Assembly (NCBI GenBank): GCA_030695925.1
Contig: JAUYOH010000158.1
Coordinates: 1 to 51,042 of the forward strand
Length of the DNA stretch: 51,042 nt
Reading direction: 5' to 3'
Source of the DNA: Candidatus Omnitrophota bacterium
GTDB lineage: Bacteria; Omnitrophota; Gorgyraeia; Pluralincolimonadales; Pluralincolimonadaceae
In this document: positions 34,570-44,471 of the stretch, piece after piece
How positions within the stretch are numbered: the first letter of the stretch is position 1
How the letters are laid out: each line of letters begins with the position of its first letter
Position numbers and translations under genes: made by a program
The notes under the pieces: model-generated
What the model was told of the DNA's origin: nothing
The model's database searches: none
The model's input: only the letters and a program-made list of their open reading frames with translations

Positions 34570-36030
34570 ATGAATAATTTGTATTCATTAACAGCTCACC
34601 AGTTATTAGACCAACTACGGGCAAAGGGCGTCTCGTCCGAAGAGATCGTCGAATCCGTCTCTGAAAGAGCGGGGTCGGTAGACAAAAAAGTAAAGGCGTA
34701 TGTCGTTCTCGAGACAGAGCGCGCGATAAAGCAGGCAAAGGAATCGACCCTTAATAAATCAGACGGCAAATTAAAAGGGATCCCGGTTGCGATAAAAGAT
34801 AATATCTGCGTTGAGGGCGAACTTACCACCTGCGCATCGAAGATATTGAAGGGTTTCAGGCCGCCGTATAATGCCACAGTAATAGATAAATTATTAAATG
34901 CCGGTGCCATACTCATGGGCAAGACGAATATGGACGAGTTCGCGTTCGGTTCTTCGTGCGAGAGCTCGGCCTACTATCCGACATTAAACCCATGGGATCT
35001 GGAGCGGATCCCCGGCGGCTCAAGCGGCGGCTCAGCCGCGGCTGTGGCGGCCGATGAGGCAATAATGGCGCTCGGCTCTGATACCGGCGGCTCGATAAGG
35101 CAGCCGGCCGCCCTATGCGGTGTCGTCGGAATGAAGCCGACTTACGGGAGAGTTTCAAGATACGGTCTTATCGCGTTTGCGTCGAGCTTGGACCAGATAG
35201 GGCCCATTACAAAAGATGTCCGTGATGCGGCGCTTCTTTTAAGCGTTATTGCCGGATTTGATAATAAAGATTCCACGTCTGTATCGCCGAAGAAAGACGA
35301 GACGGATTATCTGAAGTTTTTGGAAAATGATGTTAAAGGCATAAAGATAGGCATACCGAAAGAGTATTTTGTACCGGGTATGGATAAAGAAGTCGAGCGC
35401 GCTGTCAGGGAAGCGGTAACCTTATTCAGGGATCTAGGGGCGGAGATCGTCGACATTTCTCTGCCGCACACGGAATACGCGGTCGCGGTTTATTACATCA
35501 TAGCGACTGCCGAGGCCTCATCGAATCTGGCCCGGTTTGACGGTGTTGAGTATGGTTACAGGTGCGGTAACCCGGAAAATATATTGGATATGTATGAGAG
35601 GACGCGCGGCGAGGGATTCGGGCCCGAGGCCAAGAGAAGGATAATGCTCGGCACTCATGTGCTCTCAAGCGGTTATTACGACGCTTATTATTTAAAAGCG
35701 CAAAAGGTAAGGCGTTTAATAAAAGATGATTTCGACCGCGTATTCGAAAGCGGGATCGATTGCATATTGACTCCGACCTCGCCCACAGCCGCCTTCAGGG
35801 TGGGTGAGAAGAGCGCCGATCCCTTATCGATGTATCTTTCCGATATCTTTACGATCTCGGTAAATCTGGCGGGTGTGCCCGCTATCTCCGTGCCGTGCGG
35901 TTTTACGAAAACCAATCTTCCGATCGGGATGCAGCTTATAGGTAATTTCTTCGAAGAGGGGAAATTGTTTAAAGCGGCATATACTTACGAACAAAACACC
36001 GATTGGCGCAAGAGGAAGCCGAAACTATAA
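34570..36030 (+). CDS. gatA: Asp/Glu-tRNA amidotransferase subunit A
   Basis: The 486-residue amidase releases ammonia from glutamine for GatB. The amidase-signature Ser-cisSer-Lys triad is visible: Lys in [11 protein letters not shown], the cis Ser in [13 protein letters not shown] and the nucleophile Ser just after it (SDTGGS), with the glycine-rich [15 protein letters not shown] stretch before. [10 protein letters not shown] is also present. Together with GatB and GatC it converts Glu-tRNA(Gln) or Asp-tRNA(Asn), implying that GlnRS or AsnRS may be missing in this organism. Confidence 0.97.
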
Positions 36031-36031
36031 T

Positions 36032-37468
36032 ATGTCATACGAACCGGTCATCGGTCTGGAGGTACACGTCCAGTTAAAGACCAGATCAAAGATGTTCTGC
36101 GGTTGCCCAACGGAATTCGGGGCGCCGCCGAACACACAGACCTGTCCCGTATGCTTAGGCTTTCCCGGCTCATTGCCGGTACTTAACGAGACGGCCTTAT
36201 TGAGCGCCCTTAAAGTCGCGCACGCGGTCGATTGCTCTATCTCGCAGCAGATGAAATTCCACAGAAAAAATTATTTTTATCCCGATCTGCCGAAGAATTA
36301 TCAGATCTCACAATACGATGAACCTATGTCGGAGCGCGGACACCTCAGTATAAAAGTAAATGGCGCGGAAAAGACCATAAGGATAAAACGGGTCCATCTG
36401 GAGGAAGACGCGGGAAAGCTTATTCATGAAGAAGGAGAAAACTCCAGCCTCGTGGATTTTAATCGTTCAGGCATGCCATTGCTTGAGATAGTAAGCGAAC
36501 CCGATATAAATTCGCCCGACGAGGCGCATGAATATTTAACCGCGTTGAAATTACTATTGAGATATCTGGATATCTCGGATTGCGACATGGAGAAAGGAAG
36601 CCTCCGCTGTGACGCCAATATCTCGGTCAGAAAAAAGGGAGAGACATCTTTAGGCGTTAAGGCAGAGATAAAGAACATGAATTCCTTCAAAGGGGTTCAG
36701 GCGGCCCTGGAATACGAATTCAAGCGCCAGGTAAAATGCATCGAAGACGGGGAGAGGATAATCCAGGAGACACGGCTTTGGGATCCCGATAAAGCCGTTA
36801 CGGTTTCTATGCGCTCGAAAGAAGAGGCTCATGATTATAGATATTTTCCCGAACCGGATCTCGTTCCTTTTACCCTGCCCAAGGATATGCAGGAGGCGGC
36901 CAAGAGGTCTCTTCCCGAATTTCCGGAGACCAGGAAGAGAAGATTTATCGATAAGTTAGGCCTGCCCGAATACGACGCAGAGGTGCTGATTCAGGACAAG
37001 GACCTCTCCGATTATTTTGAGGACTGCCTGAAATTTTATGATAAGCCCAAGACCGTATCGAACTGGATAATGGGAGGTATCTCGGCATTCTTAAACGCGA
37101 AGGCGTTGCGGATTAAAGATATCAAGTTAAAGGTAAAGCCGCAGGCGCTCGCCGGCCTCTTTAGAGAGATCGATTCAGGCAGGATAAGCGGCAAGATGGC
37201 CAAGGACGTTATCTTGGAGATGCTTGAGACGGGTAAGGACGCGAGCAAAATTATAGAAGAAAAAGGCCTCGCGCAGATATCGGACGGCGCCTCGCTTGAT
37301 AAAGTGGCGGATGAGGTCATTGCGGAGAATAAAAAGACGGCGGAGGATTTTCTTAAAGGAAAAGAAAACGCGCTTATGTTTCTGGTCGGGCAGGTCATGA
37401 AGAAGACAAAGGGCAGGGCCAATCCGGCCGTCATCAACGAGATTTTAAGACGTAAACTTTCAAAATAG
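36032..37468 (+). CDS. gatB: Asp/Glu-tRNA amidotransferase subunit B
   Basis: The 478-residue subunit activates the misacylated tRNA. It starts with YEPVIGLEVHVQLKT, contains the zinc-binding CGCPTEFG and CPVCLGFPG cysteines, KNYFYPDLPKNYQISQ, and the C-terminal YqeY-like tail domain (from about 340). It starts 1 nt after the gatA stop. Confidence 0.98.
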   Translation: MSYEPVIGLEVHVQLKTRSKMFCGCPTEFGAPPNTQTCPVCLGFPGSLPVLNETALLSALKVAHAVDCSISQQMKFHRKNYFYPDLPKNYQISQYDEPMSERGHLSIKVNGAEKTIRIKRVHLEEDAGKLIHEEGENSSLVDFNRSGMPLLEIVSEPDINSPDEAHEYLTALKLLLRYLDISDCDMEKGSLRCDANISVRKKGETSLGVKAEIKNMNSFKGVQAALEYEFKRQVKCIEDGERIIQETRLWDPDKAVTVSMRSKEEAHDYRYFPEPDLVPFTLPKDMQEAAKRSLPEFPETRKRRFIDKLGLPEYDAEVLIQDKDLSDYFEDCLKFYDKPKTVSNWIMGGISAFLNAKALRIKDIKLKVKPQALAGLFREIDSGRISGKMAKDVILEMLETGKDASKIIEEKGLAQISDGASLDKVADEVIAENKKTAEDFLKGKENALMFLVGQVMKKTKGRANPAVINEILRRKLSK

Positions 37469-37493
37469 GCATAACCAAGGGGAGGGAGTGAAT

Positions 37494-38768
37494 ATGCGCA
37501 GCAGAAGATTTGTTATCCTTGTCGTTATCTTAATTTTAGCGGTCTGTGGTTCGCTGACGTTTGCCGCGCCGGAAAAAGAAGAAGATATCTATAAGCACCT
37601 CGAGCTCTTCTCGGATGTGATTTCGATAGTCCGCGCCGAATATGTTGAGGACGTAAAATCAAAAGACCTCATCTACGGGGCGATGAAAGGTATGATACAG
37701 TCCCTCGACAAGTACAGCGAATTCATGGACCCCGAGACCTACACCGAGATGAAGGTCGAGACAGAGGGCGAGTTCGGCGGGATCGGGATAGAGATCGCCA
37801 TTAAAGACGATATGCTGACCGTCATCGCTCCTATAGAAGACACGCCGGCGTATAAAGCGGGATTGAAAGCCGGCGACCGGATCGTCAAGATAGATAAAGA
37901 CATCACCCGGGGAATCACGCTATTGGAAGCGGTCAAGAAACTTCGCGGCAAACCCGGCACGCAGATCCCACTGACGGCCTTAAGAGAAAGCGAAGGTAAG
38001 ATCCTGGAGTTTACGATAACAAGGGACATCATTAAAGTAAAATCGATAAGGAAAGCGGAGATATTAGAGGACAAGATCGGCTACATCAGGCTTAGTGTCT
38101 TTCAGGAGCGCTCCGCGAAAGATCTGGAAGACGCCCTTGTCGAATTAGAGAAGAAGGGCATGGACAGTTTGATATTAGATTTGAGGAATGATCCGGGTGG
38201 CCTCTTGAATGTCGCGGCCGACGTAACCGGTAAGTTTCTGCCGTCAGGAGAGATGATAGTTTATACCAAGGGTAGGGACAAGAGGCAGAATATGGAATTC
38301 AAGGCGAAAGACAAAAAGCCGCGTACCGAATACCCTCTTGTCGTCCTTGTCGATCAGGGTTCGGCGTCCGGTTCCGAGATAGTAGCCGGCGCTATACAGG
38401 ACCATAGGCGCGGTATAATAGTGGGTACTAAGACCTTCGGCAAAGGCTCTGTCCAGACCGTCATCCCGCTCCCCGACGGTTCGGCCCTGCGCCTTACGAC
38501 AAGTAAATACTATACGCCCGGCGGCCGCTCTATACATGGCGAGGGGATCGTCCCGGATATAGTCATTGAACGCGAAGAGAAGAGCAAAGAAGAATCGAAG
38601 GCGAAGCCGGAGGAGGTATTCGAGAAGCTGGAAGAAACGCCGCCGGTTGACAATAAAGAAGGCGCCAAGCCCTCCGTAAAGAAAGAGGAATACGATAATC
38701 AATTGCAGCGCGCGGTGGACGTCATAAAGACGATGAAGATATACAAGACATTCAGCATGAAGAAATGA
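37494..38768 (+). CDS. ctpA: C-terminal processing protease (S41, CtpA-like)
   Basis: The 424-residue exported serine protease has a signal peptide (about 1-25, ending LTFAAPE), a PDZ domain (about 95-175, GIGIEIAIKDDMLTVIAPI and AGLKAGDRIVKI) and the S41 catalytic domain with Ser in DQGSASGSEIVAGA and Lys in GTKTFGKGSVQT. A charged linker (about 365-400) precedes a short C-terminal helix. GGGGAGGGA lies 6-7 nt before the ATG at 37494; an in-frame GTG at 37488 overlaps that site and is rejected. Its end overlaps the next gene (ATGA). Confidence 0.94.
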   Translation: MRSRRFVILVVILILAVCGSLTFAAPEKEEDIYKHLELFSDVISIVRAEYVEDVKSKDLIYGAMKGMIQSLDKYSEFMDPETYTEMKVETEGEFGGIGIEIAIKDDMLTVIAPIEDTPAYKAGLKAGDRIVKIDKDITRGITLLEAVKKLRGKPGTQIPLTALRESEGKILEFTITRDIIKVKSIRKAEILEDKIGYIRLSVFQERSAKDLEDALVELEKKGMDSLILDLRNDPGGLLNVAADVTGKFLPSGEMIVYTKGRDKRQNMEFKAKDKKPRTEYPLVVLVDQGSASGSEIVAGAIQDHRRGIIVGTKTFGKGSVQTVIPLPDGSALRLTTSKYYTPGGRSIHGEGIVPDIVIEREEKSKEESKAKPEEVFEKLEETPPVDNKEGAKPSVKKEEYDNQLQRAVDVIKTMKIYKTFSMKK

Positions 38769-39883
38769 AAAGAAACGTCTTTTACAATTTAATAGTCATA
38801 CTTGCGGCGGTAATATGCCTTCTGGTCGGCTTTAACCTCGCTACGTCGGTTTTTCAGAACAAGGCGCTGGATAAGGTTGTGTCTTCAGAACTTGCCAGGA
38901 ATAAGATCTTCAAGAGGGACCTCGTCGGGAGAGTCAAGCATGTATATATCGAGAAGAGATACTGGGTATCGGATTCGTTCCCTTTCGAGGATTTCGGCAA
39001 AGCGCTGGAAAATTCGCTAGAGAAAGCGGGCTTCCATTTATTATCCGTCTCGAAATCGAGCAAGGTAAGCGTCGTTAGCGGAAAGAAGGAAGTAAGGGAA
39101 GAAATATCGTATTTGATATCGGAACGCGCGGCCAGCGTCCCCATATTCCGGCTGACCCTAATCCGCAAAGTTCCATATCGCCTTCCGCCTGTAACCAAAG
39201 TTCCTCCGAAGGAACCGGTAAAGGCGAAGCCGAAGGTCGCGATAGTCCTCGATGATTGGGGTTATAATATAAAGAACTTAAACGGCCTCTTAGAGATAGA
39301 TAAGCCCATGACTCTCTCTATCCTTCCGGGCCTGCCGTATTCGACTTTCGTCGCTAATAAAGCCAAAGAGCGTAATTTCGAGGTGATCCTGCATATGCCT
39401 ATGGAGCCGAAGGCCAAGATGAGGCTTGAGTTGAGCACTTTATATATCACCATGCGTGATGACGAGATCAGGTCGAATCTGGCTAAGGCGCTTGAGAGCG
39501 TTTTGTACGCGAAGGGGATATCCAATCACGAAGGGTCGAAGGCGACCGAGGATAGACGTTTGATGAGGGCGGTATTCGGGAAATTAAAGGAAGATAACCT
39601 GTTTTTTCTGGATAGCCTTGTGACGAATGATTCGGTATGCGAGCCGCTCGCCAGAGAAATGAAAGTGAGATTCGCGAAGAGGGATATTTTTTTAGACAAT
39701 GAAAGCAATCCCGCTTATATCAGGAAACAATTCGGGAAATTGATCGATCTGGCGGTCAAAAACGGCGAGGCCGTCGGGATAGGCCACGACAGGCCTAATA
39801 CGATCGCCGTATTAAAAGAGATGATACCGCGGATTGAAGAGAACGGCATAGAGTTGACTTATATATCTGAGCTGGCAAAGTAA
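38765..39883 (+). CDS. Divergent polysaccharide deacetylase (DUF610/YibQ-like)
   Basis: The 372-residue protein has an N-terminal membrane anchor (about 5-28), a variable region and a divergent deacetylase domain (about 155-370). Family motifs: VAIVLDDWGYN, LSILPGLPYS, LHMPMEPK, GISNHEGSKAT, FFLDSLVTNDS, RDIFLDNE and VGIGHDRPNT. The fold is that of NodB-type deacetylases; these proteins commonly neighbour CtpA or murein hydrolase genes, which suggests envelope work. The start overlaps the ctpA stop. Confidence 0.88.
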   Translation: MKRNVFYNLIVILAAVICLLVGFNLATSVFQNKALDKVVSSELARNKIFKRDLVGRVKHVYIEKRYWVSDSFPFEDFGKALENSLEKAGFHLLSVSKSSKVSVVSGKKEVREEISYLISERAASVPIFRLTLIRKVPYRLPPVTKVPPKEPVKAKPKVAIVLDDWGYNIKNLNGLLEIDKPMTLSILPGLPYSTFVANKAKERNFEVILHMPMEPKAKMRLELSTLYITMRDDEIRSNLAKALESVLYAKGISNHEGSKATEDRRLMRAVFGKLKEDNLFFLDSLVTNDSVCEPLAREMKVRFAKRDIFLDNESNPAYIRKQFGKLIDLAVKNGEAVGIGHDRPNTIAVLKEMIPRIEENGIELTYISELAK

Positions 39884-39884
39884 A

Positions 39885-39933
39885 CCCCTCACCTTAATCC
39901 TCTCCCCAAGGGGGAGAGGGAAGGGAGAGGGGG
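39885..39933. repeat. REP-like imperfect palindrome
   Basis: CCTCTCCCC (39899-39907) pairs with GGGGAGAGG (39911-39919), and the flanks add CCCCTC (39885-39890) with GAGGGG (39927-39932) and CCTT with AAGG. The sequence closely resembles a CCCTCACC..CTCTCCC palindrome that recurs in intergenic regions of many unrelated bacteria. It lies in the gap before tsaD and is the only copy seen here, apart from a partial AAGGGAGAGGGGG-like half at about 41650. Confidence 0.75.
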
Positions 39934-39957
39934 TATACAAGGATTAATTAAACCAAA

Positions 39958-40953
39958 ATGTTGACACTAGGTATCGAGACATCCTGCGATGAGACCGGAG
40001 CAAGCGTCGTCAAAGACGGTAGAGAGATCCTTTCCAATACGGTCGCCTCTTCGCTTGAATTCCACAAGAGATACGGCGGCGTAGTCCCTGAGATAGCCAC
40101 ACGCTACCACGTGGAAGTAATAGATTATGTGGTAAAAGATTCTTTAAAGAAAGCAGAGGCCAAATTGAAGGACATCGATTTAGTGGCCGTCACCCGCGGG
40201 CCGGGGTTGGTGGGGTCACTGTTGGTCGGCGTCTCTTTCGCCAAGGCCCTGAGCTATTCTTTGGATATCCCTTTGATAGGGGTAAACCATCTTTGGGCGC
40301 ATCTGTATTCGGGACTTATAGAGAAACCTGACATAAGATTTCCGTTCATCGGCCTTGTCGTCTCGGGCGGGCACACAAGCCTTGTATTTTGCGAAAATGC
40401 GGGTAAATTTAAATTATTAGGGCAGACAAAGGACGACGCCGCGGGTGAGGCGTTTGATAAGGTCGCGAAGGTCTTGGGATTGGGCTATCCCGGCGGACCG
40501 GCGATCGAGAGAGCGGCAAGGCAAGGCAACCCCTATGCGATAAAATTCGCGCCGGCATATTTAGGCGAAGATTCTTACGATTTTAGTTTCAGCGGAATAA
40601 AAACCGCTGTATTATATTACATAAAAGCCCACAGGTTGAACAGGAAGGTCATAGCGAATATCGCGGCGGGATTTCAGAAGGCGGTCGTTGATTGCCTCAT
40701 TGCCAAGGCGATAGACGCCTGTAAGGCTAAGGGTGTGGCGACGTTGGTCGTCGGCGGGGGTGTTGGCGCAAATATACTTTTAAGGCAGGACCTGACGCGG
40801 GAAGGGCGCGCTAACGGTATCGATGTCATATTTCCCTCTTTTGAACTTTCGCTCGATAACGCTGCGATGGTCGCGGCGATGGGTTACAGGTTGTTTAAGG
40901 GAAGAGTCAGGTCGAGATCAGGTCTCTCAGCGGAACCGAATTTGAGAATTTGA
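39958..40953 (+). CDS. tsaD: tRNA t6A37 threonylcarbamoyltransferase TsaD
   Basis: The 331-residue ASKHA-fold enzyme transfers threonylcarbamoyl to A37 of ANN-decoding tRNAs. Motifs: GIETSCDETGASVV, VTRGPGLVGSLLVG, the metal-binding HLWAH, VVSGGHTSLV, DDAAGEAFDKVAK and VGGGVGAN. Length matches the family. GGATTAATT with a weak AAGGA lies upstream of the ATG. Confidence 0.97.
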   Translation: MLTLGIETSCDETGASVVKDGREILSNTVASSLEFHKRYGGVVPEIATRYHVEVIDYVVKDSLKKAEAKLKDIDLVAVTRGPGLVGSLLVGVSFAKALSYSLDIPLIGVNHLWAHLYSGLIEKPDIRFPFIGLVVSGGHTSLVFCENAGKFKLLGQTKDDAAGEAFDKVAKVLGLGYPGGPAIERAARQGNPYAIKFAPAYLGEDSYDFSFSGIKTAVLYYIKAHRLNRKVIANIAAGFQKAVVDCLIAKAIDACKAKGVATLVVGGGVGANILLRQDLTREGRANGIDVIFPSFELSLDNAAMVAAMGYRLFKGRVRSRSGLSAEPNLRI

Positions 40954-40965
40954 TAGGAGAGAAAG

Positions 40966-41640
40966 ATGGTAAGCCAATACGAGATGATAGCAAGGCTGTT
41001 CTTGGCCGCTATATTAAGCGGTCTGGTCGGTTATGAACGTGAGATCCACGGCAGGCTCGCGGGCTTCAGGACGCATATCCTGGTCTGTGTCGGCTCGACA
41101 TTAATCATGTTGACGTCTATGTACATATTCGATATATACCAGGGCCGTGCCACACCCGATCCCGCGCGTATCGCCGCGCAGGTCGTAAGCGGAATAGGTT
41201 TTTTGGGTGCGGGCACCATAATAAGATTTAAGGCCTCTGTCCGCGGGCTTACCACCGCGGCGAGCCTCTGGACCATAGCCGGGATAGGCTTGGCGGTCGG
41301 AAGCGGGCTATACGTGCCGGCCACCGTTACGACGGTCATAGTGCTTGCGACACTGTTTTTCCTGAATATATTCGAGAAATCACTGATAAGGAAGGATTGG
41401 TATAAATTGATCGCGGTCGAGACCAAGGCGGGTGCTTCGCAACTTGAAGAAATACGCTCGGTCTTGGGCGAATACGAGGTAGAGATAAAAGATTTCGAGG
41501 TCCAGAAATCGGCTTCACCGGACAATCTGGTCCTGAAGATAAGCCTTAAATTATTGACGTCCGAATATGACGAAGAGATCATCTCCAGGATACGCCAGCT
41601 CGACGGAATAAAGAAGGTAAACTGGATGGCTGTTCCGTAA
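40966..41640 (+). CDS. MgtC/SapB family membrane protein
   Basis: The 224-residue protein has an N-terminal MgtC membrane domain with four predicted helices (about 5-135), with GYEREIHGRLAGFRTHILVC, GIGFLGAGTIIR and VRGLTTAASLWTIAGIGLA, then a small ACT-like cytoplasmic domain (about 145-224). The family includes Mg2+-linked virulence factors, but function differs between members. GAGAGAAAG lies before the ATG. It is the second gene in the window tied to magnesium besides corA. Confidence 0.92.
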   Translation: MVSQYEMIARLFLAAILSGLVGYEREIHGRLAGFRTHILVCVGSTLIMLTSMYIFDIYQGRATPDPARIAAQVVSGIGFLGAGTIIRFKASVRGLTTAASLWTIAGIGLAVGSGLYVPATVTTVIVLATLFFLNIFEKSLIRKDWYKLIAVETKAGASQLEEIRSVLGEYEVEIKDFEVQKSASPDNLVLKISLKLLTSEYDEEIISRIRQLDGIKKVNWMAVP

Positions 41641-41670
41641 CAATACGGAAAGGGAGAGGGGGTGTTTTAA

Positions 41671-42204
41671 ATGTTAGGCAAGGCCAAGAAGGTCGAGGAA
41701 AAAATCTTAGATGTGGATGCGACCATGCAAGGGACGATGTCGTTTAAGGACCCGGTCAATCTCCACATTAACGGCAGATTTGAGGGGACGCTCGATACGA
41801 GGGGTACTCTGACTATCGGGGAAAAAGCCTTTGTCAGCGCTAACATCATCGGAGATGAGATCACGATTGCAGGCAGGGTGACGGGGGAGATCGTCGCAAA
41901 GAAGTCCATCAGGCTGATCTCGCCTGCCCGTGTGGACGGAAACATAAAGACGCCGCTGCTTGAGATCGATAAGGGGGCCGTATTGAACGGCAATTGCCAG
42001 ATGACCGGCAGCGTAAAGGTCTTGAGCGCGGCATCCACGGAAATAATGGATGCGGATGAAGTGGCGAGGTATCTGGAGATAGAGGCTTCTCTGGTTAATG
42101 AATGGGCTAACAGCGGTAAGTTGCCGGCGATCAGGGACGGCGGGGTATTTCATTTTGACAAGGCCAAGATAGATGAGTGGATTGCATCGGAGCGAGTTAA
42201 ATAA
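41671..42204 (+). CDS. Bactofilin with C-terminal helix-turn-helix domain
   Basis: The 177-residue protein has a bactofilin domain (about 16-115; a repeated beta-helix reading INGRFEGTLDTRGTLTIGEK..V.A.I.GDEITIAGRVTGEI) and then a HTH_17/excisionase-like domain (about 126-173, MDADEVARYLEIEASLVNEW and FDKAKIDEWI). Bactofilins form cytoskeletal filaments tied to cell shape; an HTH at the end is unusual. No membrane segment is seen. The following gene also has an HTH_17 domain. Its 3' end overlaps that gene by 32 bases. Confidence 0.85.
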   Translation: MLGKAKKVEEKILDVDATMQGTMSFKDPVNLHINGRFEGTLDTRGTLTIGEKAFVSANIIGDEITIAGRVTGEIVAKKSIRLISPARVDGNIKTPLLEIDKGAVLNGNCQMTGSVKVLSAASTEIMDADEVARYLEIEASLVNEWANSGKLPAIRDGGVFHFDKAKIDEWIASERVK

Positions 42205-42568
42205 GATATTAAGCGTGCCGGACACAAAAGAGGGTCTGCTTAATTTAAAGGAGGCCGCGGCCTTACTCGGCCTTACTGAAGAAGAGGTAAGATATTTTGT
42301 CTCTTGCGGCAAGATCCCGGCTTATAAGATAGGCGGCGAGTTTTTAAGGTTTAAGAGAGACCAAGTTGAGGCCCTGCGCGGCAGGATAAAGATATTAAAG
42401 CATCAATCCGTCCCCATCGAGAAGATAGTTCCGGCTGAGGAGACCGAGAGGAAGGTCAAATATTCCGTGCGGGACAAGATCAGGGATTTTCTGTATTTCA
42501 ACGATTTTTACTTCCTTGCCGCGGTCTTGATCGCGCTCTTGATTTTCGTGATCTTAAAGAAGAGATAA
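42173..42568 (+). CDS. Membrane-anchored HTH_17-type protein
   Basis: The 131-residue protein has an excisionase/MerR-like HTH (about 22-70, LNLKEAAALLGLTEEEVRYF and GEFLRFKRDQVEAL), a linker, and one C-terminal membrane helix (about 112-128, DFYFLAAVLIALLIFVIL) with a KKR end, so the HTH lies in the cytoplasm. It parallels the HTH of the bactofilin fusion: both have GK(L/I)PA and an F.F(D/K)-type turn. The ATG at 42173 has no clear ribosome binding site; TTG at 42182 or GTG at 42215 are other options. Function is unknown. Confidence 0.78.
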   Translation: MSGLHRSELNKILSVPDTKEGLLNLKEAAALLGLTEEEVRYFVSCGKIPAYKIGGEFLRFKRDQVEALRGRIKILKHQSVPIEKIVPAEETERKVKYSVRDKIRDFLYFNDFYFLAAVLIALLIFVILKKR

Positions 42569-42570
42569 AA

Positions 42571-43320
42571 GTGGATTATTCCAAGCATTCCATTAAAAAA
42601 GTGCTTTCGCATCTAAAGAAGGGGAAGATATCGCAGGCCTCCGCTTTTAAGAGGCTGGAGCATTTCCCGTTCCAGGATATAGGTTTTGCCAAGATAGATT
42701 TTCACCGCGCCGTAAGAAAAGGATTTCCCGAAGTCATATTCGCCCCGGGTAAGAGGAATTTCGAGGTCGCGGAGATATCAAAGAGGATCCTCGCGAGCGG
42801 GAACACTCTCCTCATCACCAAGGCAACACCGGTCCTGTATGAATATCTGGCGAGGATAATCCCTCAGGTCAGATTTGAAGAGCCCGCGAAGATGATATAT
42901 TATCAAAGAAGGCGGCCCGCGAAGAAGAGAAACCCCGTCCTCGTCATTACGGCGGGGACATCGGATATACCTGTCGCGGAAGAGGCGTCATTGACTTTGG
43001 ATATTCTGGGCAACAGAGTGCAAAAATTATATGACGTCGGAGTAGCCGGCATCCATCGGCTGGTAGATAAGATGGATCTGATAAAGAAGGCGAAGGTGAT
43101 AATCGTCGTGGCCGGGATGGAGGGGGCGCTGGCTTCGATAGTCGGCGGCTTGACTTCGAGTCCCGTTATCGCGGTGCCGACCTCCGTCGGATACGGCGCT
43201 TCATTCGGCGGGCTGTCCTCGCTTTTGACGATGTTAAATTCCTGTTCGCCGGGCGTATGCGTCATGAACATAGATAACGGCTTCGGCGCGGGTTACTTCG
43301 CGAATTTGATAAACAAATGA
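42571..43320 (+). CDS. larB: LarB, pyridinium-3,5-biscarboxylate mononucleotide synthase
   Basis: The 249-residue protein carboxylates nicotinate adenine dinucleotide in the synthesis of the nickel-pincer nucleotide. It has a PurE-like C-terminal half with ITAGTSDIPVAEEA, VIIVVAGMEGALASIVGGL, PVIAVPTSVGYGASFGGLS and MNIDNGFGAGYFA. The start is GTG at 42571, 2 nt after the previous stop. The stop overlaps larC (ATGA). Confidence 0.93.
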   Translation: MDYSKHSIKKVLSHLKKGKISQASAFKRLEHFPFQDIGFAKIDFHRAVRKGFPEVIFAPGKRNFEVAEISKRILASGNTLLITKATPVLYEYLARIIPQVRFEEPAKMIYYQRRRPAKKRNPVLVITAGTSDIPVAEEASLTLDILGNRVQKLYDVGVAGIHRLVDKMDLIKKAKVIIVVAGMEGALASIVGGLTSSPVIAVPTSVGYGASFGGLSSLLTMLNSCSPGVCVMNIDNGFGAGYFANLINK

Positions 43321-44471
43321 GTAAAATTCTATATTTGGATTGTCCAAGCGGGATAAGCGGGGATATGTTTTTGGGTTCGCTTATCCATTGCGGGCTGAAG
43401 ATCGATTATTTGACTTCCGAACTGCGCAAGGCTAAAATAAACGGTTATAAACTTAAGGCGCGGAAGGTAAATCGCGGCGGGATCGTCGGCGTAAAATTCG
43501 ACGTGATTTATGACAAACGCCCCAGCCGTGAACATACGGAAGAAAAGACCTTTAAGGGAATAGTCAAATTGATAAACAATTCCGGGCTCCCGAGAGCCGT
43601 GAAATGCCGGGCTATGGAGATCTTCACCAATCTCGCGGATGCCGAAAGCGCGGCGCACGGTGTGCCCAGAGAGAAAGTCCACTTTCATGAGGTGGCAGAC
43701 ATAGATTCTATCGTGGATATATTAGGCGCCGCTATAGCCGTAGAAAAGTTGGGAATAGAGGCGGTCTATTCTTCCGTCGTCACATTGGCGAATCCGGCCC
43801 CAGCCACGGCGTATCTTCTGGAGGGCATTAAAGTGGTTTTTTCCGGCATTCAGCATGAACTTGTCACGCCGACTGGCGCGGCGATATTAAAGACTTTCTC
43901 TAAGGGCTTCGGCGGCGCCCCGCCTATGAAAATCCTTAAAGTCGGCTATGGCGCCGGAAGCGCCGATATTCAAGGCCATCCAAATTTGCTGCGGGCGATG
44001 ATCGGCGAGAAGACAGATGCATTTGAGACCGATACGGTCACCGTCCTCGAGACGAATATAGATGACATGAGTCCTCAGGCCTATGAATATTTGATGGAGA
44101 GGGTATTGGAAGCGGGAGCGCTGGATATCTACCTGACCGGTATCATTATGAAAAAGTCGCGCCCCGGCTGTCTCGTCACGGTCTTAACGGAACCTTCAAA
44201 GGCCGACGCTATCGCCGCGATCATTTTCGAGGAGACCCCCACGTTCGGCGTCAGGCGCTATCAGGCGACAAGACAAAAATTACATCGTAAAATCATTGAA
44301 GTAGCGACAAAATATGGTAAGATAAGTGTTAAATTAGGTTACCTCGCGGACAGGTTAAAGATCGCGGCACCCGAATATGATGATTGCAAAAAAATAGCGA
44401 AGGAACGAAAAGTTTCATTTCGGCAGGTATGGAGAGAGGCTGAAAGAGCCGCATGGAAAGACACAGACTAA
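43317..44471 (+). CDS. larC: LarC, nickel insertion protein of the pincer cofactor
   Basis: The 384-residue CTP-dependent nickel insertase completes the Ni-pincer nucleotide. Motifs: LYLDCPSGISGDMFLGSL, HFHEVADIDSIVDILGAA, GIQHELVTPTGAAIL, ETNIDDMSPQ and TPTFGVRRY. It is one continuous frame, whereas Lactobacillus makes LarC by a frameshift between two frames. LarE (sulfur donor) and LarA-like enzymes are not in the window. The stop lies 19 bases inside the next ATPase gene. Confidence 0.94.
   Translation: MSKILYLDCPSGISGDMFLGSLIHCGLKIDYLTSELRKAKINGYKLKARKVNRGGIVGVKFDVIYDKRPSREHTEEKTFKGIVKLINNSGLPRAVKCRAMEIFTNLADAESAAHGVPREKVHFHEVADIDSIVDILGAAIAVEKLGIEAVYSSVVTLANPAPATAYLLEGIKVVFSGIQHELVTPTGAAILKTFSKGFGGAPPMKILKVGYGAGSADIQGHPNLLRAMIGEKTDAFETDTVTVLETNIDDMSPQAYEYLMERVLEAGALDIYLTGIIMKKSRPGCLVTVLTEPSKADAIAAIIFEETPTFGVRRYQATRQKLHRKIIEVATKYGKISVKLGYLADRLKIAAPEYDDCKKIAKERKVSFRQVWREAERAAWKDTD

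Follow-up and report, generated by a model that had tools for sequence, protein, structure and literature searches.

A winged-helix membrane protein encoded beside a bactofilin across the phylum Omnitrophota

Overlapping genes for a bactofilin and a membrane protein

The window, a 51,042-nucleotide stretch of DNA from a Candidatus Omnitrophota assembly (contig JAUYOH010000158.1), contains two overlapping genes whose products we call BAC, a bactofilin-HTH protein, and HTM, a membrane protein with a winged helix (Table 1). The assembly has a completeness of 94.6% and a contamination of 7.4%, and many of the genomes used for comparison are also drafts. The HTM open reading frame has 131 codons and an ATG start. 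Two relatives (L007 and L010) have no other ATG, GTG or TTG in the N-terminal stretch, and the overlap with BAC is present in 9/9 members of the window's own family that were compared; both observations make the start credible. HTM of other families mostly starts about 15–18 residues later, and the genes are there usually parted by a small gap. Conservation across relatives and across the phylum makes HTM more than a chance ORF, and the gene is confirmed as real.

Table 1. Genes and predicted features of the locus (window positions, forward strand +)
Feature	Position	Strand	Remark
gatA, gatB, S41 peptidase, polysaccharide deacetylase, tsaD, mgtC	34570..41640	+	Conserved upstream context, outside the system
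BAC, bactofilin with C-terminal HTH_17, 177 aa	41671..42204	+	Partner gene
BAC bactofilin domain, residues 12-110, beta-helix	41704..42000	+	Pfam, structure model
BAC HTH_17 domain, residues 126-174	42046..42192	+	Acidic recognition helix
BAC/HTM overlap, 32 bases	42173..42204	+	Typical of the window's own family; median gap elsewhere +15
HTM gene	42173..42568	+	131-aa winged-helix protein, one C-terminal membrane helix
HTM HTH_17 winged helix, residues 22-68	42236..42376	+	Acidic recognition helix; basic wing, Arg59
HTM linker, about residues 73-98	42389..42466	+	Variable, low confidence
HTM juxtamembrane helix and motif D-F-L-Y-F-N-D-F-Y, residues 99-113 (motif 105-113)	42467..42511	+	Most conserved stretch
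HTM predicted transmembrane helix, residues 111-130	42503..42562	+	AlphaFold2 and hydropathy
AIRC-family (LarB-like) and nickel-insertion (LarC-like) genes	42571..44471	+	Variable downstream context

The HTH_17 domain of HTM (PF12728) was detected by Pfam at 34.4 bits (E 2.7e-8; gathering cut-off 27), and HTH_17 and MerR_1 were the only matches at E up to 1, with no HTH_25. A single hydrophobic segment extends from about residue 110 to 130 (best 19-residue Kyte-Doolittle mean 2.44), and hydropathy finds a C-terminal transmembrane (TM) segment in 207 of 209 HTM homologues. The AlphaFold2 model, built from 126 aligned sequences, consists of a confident winged helix at about 22–72, a low-confidence linker, a helix at 99-109, a break at N110 and a final helix with a block pLDDT above 95 for most of its length. 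The HTH_17 domain and the single C-terminal membrane helix proposed by the first-pass annotation thus agree with Pfam, hydropathy and the structure model, and the 32-base overlap that it described is indeed seen.

In BAC, the bactofilin domain (PF04519) is matched at E 3.3e-24 and PDB bactofilins are recovered as sequence matches, while the HTH_17 domain scores 35.3 bits (E 1.4e-8) against the same cut-off of 27. Its AlphaFold2 model shows beta-helix strands over residues 12-111, a low-confidence hinge at about 112–124 and a C-terminal winged helix. Bactofilins bind the membrane through a short N-terminal peptide with the consensus MFSKKKK, and client membrane proteins help in their retention (PMC12448750). 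The N-terminus of the window's BAC, MLGKAKK, is basic and partly hydrophobic, a character shared by most BACs. No hydrophobic residue is found at position 2 in 157 of 197 Omnitrophota BACs, and 48 of the 197 have none in positions 2-5, a few start codons being uncertain. Because many BACs keep a hydrophobic residue at position 3, HTM may reinforce rather than replace this membrane peptide. A second bactofilin in the same genome (G000:C64:38282-38581; L092, 1723-2121, minus strand) has no HTH, has a canonical MFKKN N-terminus and is located close to a T2SSE/T2SSF-type secretion gene.

Distribution and neighborhood of the pair

We called HTM present at a profile E <1e-14, which places it in about 253 of 285 Omnitrophota genomes; 274 are tallied at 1e-4, and the weak matches behind this higher number are probably solo HTH_17 proteins. 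HTM and a bactofilin occur together in 238 genomes, HTM alone in 15, a bactofilin alone in one and neither in 31 (Fisher p 5e-29, uncorrected for kinship and for joint gaps in draft genomes). Given the relatedness of the genomes and the joint loss of neighboring genes in drafts, the asymmetry of these counts tells more than the p value. The sole genome with a bactofilin and no HTM (G013) has a weak, interrupted bactofilin match. In every one of the 195 pairs inspected, BAC and HTM lie side by side on the same strand, with a median gap of 15 bases. Among 59 relatives, a whole-protein search found HTM homologues in 52, most with the same layout and a few weak ones HTH-only, and the BAC query had matches in 54, some merely via HTH-only proteins. 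A scan of about 85,000 GTDB species representatives, using short exact peptides that distant relatives in other phyla could escape, yielded 54 loci with HTM, of which 52 are titled Omnitrophota, Omnitrophica or Candidatus Aadella, one "bacterium" and one Pacebacteria. The HTM/BAC pairing is real and phylum-wide in Omnitrophota, and HTM is an undescribed and apparently phylum-specific family. In the literature searched, nothing joined "bactofilin" and "Omnitrophota", and a deep-phylogeny review recovered with "Omnitrophica" names bactofilin once.

The locus titled Candidatus Pacebacteria (L050) has the Omnitrophota gene order, with an HTM and neighborhood like those of an Omnitrophica contig (L051); it is probably mislabeled or misbinned. 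Family f17 (G025, G056, G211, G242, G257, G265, G282 and G288) is without both BAC and HTM, and a RodZ-type HTH_25 protein was also not found in G025 and G056, the two of its genomes tested. At L233, a gene with a peptidoglycan-binding domain fills the slot after tsaD.

In the window's class the pair closes a fixed run, gatC-gatA-gatB-S41 peptidase-polysaccharide deacetylase-tsaD-mgtC-BAC-HTM, whereas in another class it adjoins ACPS, YdjC and SurE genes instead. The pair is kept where the flanking genes differ, so the conserved unit is the pair and not the neighborhood. The gene order of window positions 34570-42568, from gatA to HTM, is kept across most of the class. Downstream, LarB occurs in 32 of 54 contig loci, with other genes in the rest, and secretion genes are an even less constant neighbor. 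The first-pass annotation had described an undescribed two-part system set before Lar and secretion genes, to be abandoned if the genes did not co-occur in other genomes. The survey contradicts that refutation, and a conserved two-gene unit of one scaffold and one membrane part bears out the undescribed system. "Two-part" has to be qualified, as HTM also occurs without any bactofilin, and the special tie to Lar and secretion genes is not supported, given the LarB count and the entirely different neighborhood of the other class.

The absence of any bactofilin was confirmed at the locus level in 9 of the 15 HTM-only genomes, those inspected, and several bactofilin-less HTM genomes are 96-99% complete. 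In eight of them (G015, G017, G038, G049, G076, G120, G228 and G274) HTM lies directly 3' of mgtC or tsaD, a clean loss of the bactofilin gene alone. HTM is thus kept without bactofilin, which indicates that it has a bactofilin-independent job, and a bactofilin is essentially never found without HTM, so that the dependence seems to be that of bactofilin on HTM. Of the two, HTM is the more fundamental. In older bactofilin-less lineages the winged helix of HTM drifts and the juxtamembrane motif stays (p 0.04-0.08, a weak trend from few independent events), as would be expected if the winged helix faces bactofilin; in one bactofilin-less family both are fully kept. In the ninth, genome G035 (L087, 4741-5103), HTM has moved beside three T2SSE/T2SSF-type secretion genes with no bactofilin, and its winged helix is strongly diverged with the juxtamembrane/TM part kept, a lead on the bactofilin-independent role.

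The HTH domains and the juxtamembrane motif

The structural neighbors of the HTM winged helix are, best first, RacA-DNA (5i44), Xis and BldC-DNA, with the CbpM-CbpA J-domain complex (3ucs) also found: three DNA binders and one protein binder. Profile searches gave 4j2n, 6amk and 6ama as sequence matches. As controls for the two HTH domains we took 23 solo HTH_17 proteins, almost all of them encoded in the genomes that also supplied HTM and BAC. The recognition helix has a net charge of +2.3 in the solo proteins versus −2.1 in HTM and −2.8 in BAC (p <1e-12), and the whole BAC HTH domain has a net charge of −2.5. Arg30 of BldC contacts bases, and RacA binds DNA with the equivalent Arg (PMC5859096); 57% of HTM and 85% of BAC have an acidic residue there. 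At the wing position of BldC Arg48, all HTM carry Arg59 (100%) and 63% of BAC carry K or R; the HTM wing is basic. Acidic recognition helices beside basic ones in the solo controls make DNA binding unlikely, and the HTH domains of HTM and BAC, judged by their residues, have probably lost it. The charge data are compatible with weak DNA binding through the HTM wing and disfavor sequence-specific binding. Small solo HTH_17 proteins of about 60-90 aa are numerous in Omnitrophota genomes, and the recognition helix of many of them is a near-constant KKQTIYNWL-like sequence (L213-L231).

In the tree the BAC HTH falls among the solo HTH_17 proteins with a bootstrap of 99, so that the HTM and BAC domains, by sequence, belong to the same family and are not closest relatives; this grouping does not support a recent duplication. 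Of the earlier proposal that two related HTH domains might link the envelope to DNA, the shared family therefore stands and a close relationship does not, and the link to DNA is opposed by the acidic recognition helices of both.

The hallmark of the HTM family is not the HTH but, from the alignment, the juxtamembrane motif D-F-x-Y-F-N-D-F-Y. Loci L031-L084 were found partly by the peptide FLYFNDFY, which makes motif conservation among them circular, and we therefore used loci found otherwise; alignment A2 leaves out all loci found through the peptide. In A2 conservation reaches 100% for Arg59, 99% for Tyr113, 97% for Leu32, 96% for Phe106 and 95% for Phe112, and position 105 is Asp or Glu in 99%. 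Of 155 homologues identified independently of the motif, 143 carry its relaxed form, [DE]F.[YRHK][FYHLC][NYK][DN][FL][YF]; no other ORF of the loci examined matches a stricter form. In another class the motif reads DFWRFNNFYI. The model predicts that the motif sits at the membrane interface, with a helix break at N110 separating the interfacial helix from the TM helix, which D111 opens.

Proposed roles and comparison with known systems

We give an even chance to HTM being a tail-anchored adaptor that docks the bactofilin scaffold at the membrane via its cytoplasmic winged helix; for this protein we infer a direct contact with BAC, a membrane-anchoring role and a second partner. The C-terminal helix would lie in the inner membrane, preceded by the interfacial motif helix, with the winged helix in the cytoplasm. 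BAC would polymerize through its beta-helix, and its C-terminal winged helices would hang from the flexible hinge along the filament. HTM would concentrate the filament and hold it at the membrane, its winged helix most likely binding that of BAC, or another face of the filament, in analogy with RodZ HTH-MreB and PbpC-BacA (and not by homology to RodZ). The juxtamembrane/TM part would have a second, bactofilin-independent membrane partner, and the pair would link the scaffold to that envelope component. Overproduced PbpC can substitute for the BacA membrane-targeting sequence (PMC12448750), a precedent for a membrane client holding a bactofilin. RodZ, whose HTH binds MreB and not DNA (PMC6946637), and CbpM, a MerR-like fold without DNA-binding residues that binds the J-domain of CbpA (PMC4063869), are precedents for HTH adaptors that do not bind DNA.

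Several observations weaken the docking model. Among 195 HTM-BAC pairs, neither mean-field DCA nor phylogeny-aware co-change enriched HTH-HTH above HTH-bactofilin pairs (1.52% versus 1.59% with Z >2.5), and charge correlation between HTM and BAC gave no HTH-HTH signal, each test being of low power. No natural BAC-HTM fusion was seen, the basic BAC N-terminus could bind membrane itself, 15 genomes retain HTM but no bactofilin, and Arg59 with the basic wing resembles a DNA-binding wing. A BldC-like head-to-tail heterodimer formed by charge swap (BAC Glu136/HTM Arg26), which column averages had suggested, was rejected, as the sites do not covary (0 joint changes).

The persistence of HTM in bactofilin-less genomes, with its motif kept and its winged helix intact in one family, would also follow if HTM and BAC were co-transcribed and served the same envelope process without contact. 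HTM would then engage another membrane protein via the juxtamembrane motif, and its winged helix would bind the cytoplasmic part of that partner or regulate HTM itself. The motif is the most conserved part of HTM and HTM has no coevolution signal with BAC, in agreement with this explanation; we nevertheless judge it unlikely, as the pair is still adjacent where all other neighbors change, essentially no bactofilin occurs without HTM, and BAC gained its own HTH of the same family. It is improbable that BAC filaments and HTM winged helices fasten the nucleoid to the membrane, like RacA-DivIVA or BacNOP-PadC-ParABS. HTH_17 is normally a DNA-binding family, DNA complexes lead the structural matches, the wing of HTM is basic with an invariant Arg59, and bactofilin-chromosome links are known (PMC5703909), but the acidic recognition helices, the acidic residues at the BldC Arg30 position and the negative BAC HTH domain all speak against a DNA tether. 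An HTH with a single TM helix, encoded inside a long operon, could also be a membrane-bound transcription regulator of that operon whose TM segment senses the envelope state. We regard this as very improbable, because HTM has no sensor domain (the motif tyrosine is followed by only about 17 residues, which the TM helix takes up entirely), its recognition helix is acidic, and the neighboring genes vary between classes, leaving no constant target.

A broader form of the docking model is possible, and we put it forward tentatively. HTM would be the founder of a group of phylum-specific tail-anchored hubs, its motif engaging an envelope machine and its winged helix clipping on bactofilin, as a second, independent RodZ-like coupler. 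The winged helix of HTM would have been converted from DNA to protein binding, and the BAC HTH separately recruited from a DNA-binding protein. If HTM is an adaptor for BAC, the uncultured Omnitrophota would gain a defined, near-universal scaffold-membrane module, and HTH folds would have been repurposed as cytoskeleton connectors in a family other than RodZ. The juxtamembrane motif, being near-invariant, offers a clear starting point in the search for the envelope process that HTM serves, and the pair is testable in Escherichia coli, with no need to grow the source organism.

Among known systems, BldC and the solo HTH_17 excisionase-like proteins share the winged-helix family of HTM but are soluble DNA binders with no membrane helix, the solo proteins having a basic recognition helix. 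CbpM is a coiled-coil dimer with a chaperone partner and, unlike HTM, has no membrane helix; RacA also has no TM helix. The likeness of CbpM to HTM lies in the structural match and in a MerR-type fold, which in CbpM serves protein binding and is without DNA-contact residues (PMC4063869). RacA, the chromosome-pole anchor of Bacillus subtilis, is the top structural match but binds DNA through the Arg that corresponds to BldC Arg30 (PMC5859096), where HTM and BAC mostly have an acidic residue. RodZ resembles HTM in being bitopic with a cytoplasmic HTH at its N-terminus, and the RodZ HTH binds a filament and not DNA (PMC6946637), as proposed for HTM, but RodZ belongs to the HTH_25/XRE family, has a large periplasmic domain and has MreB as its partner. 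An HTH_25 protein is found in 54 of 59 relatives and MreB in 59 of 59; HTM as a RodZ replacement is ruled out, since RodZ-type proteins and MreB are already present. BacA-PbpC of Caulobacter likewise combines a bactofilin with a bitopic membrane protein, which in that system binds it by a cytoplasmic N-terminal part (PMC12448750). PbpC, a cell-wall synthase, contacts its bactofilin through a short conserved peptide, whereas HTM has a folded winged helix and no enzyme domain, and no HTH is described for BacA, whereas BAC carries a C-terminal HTH_17.
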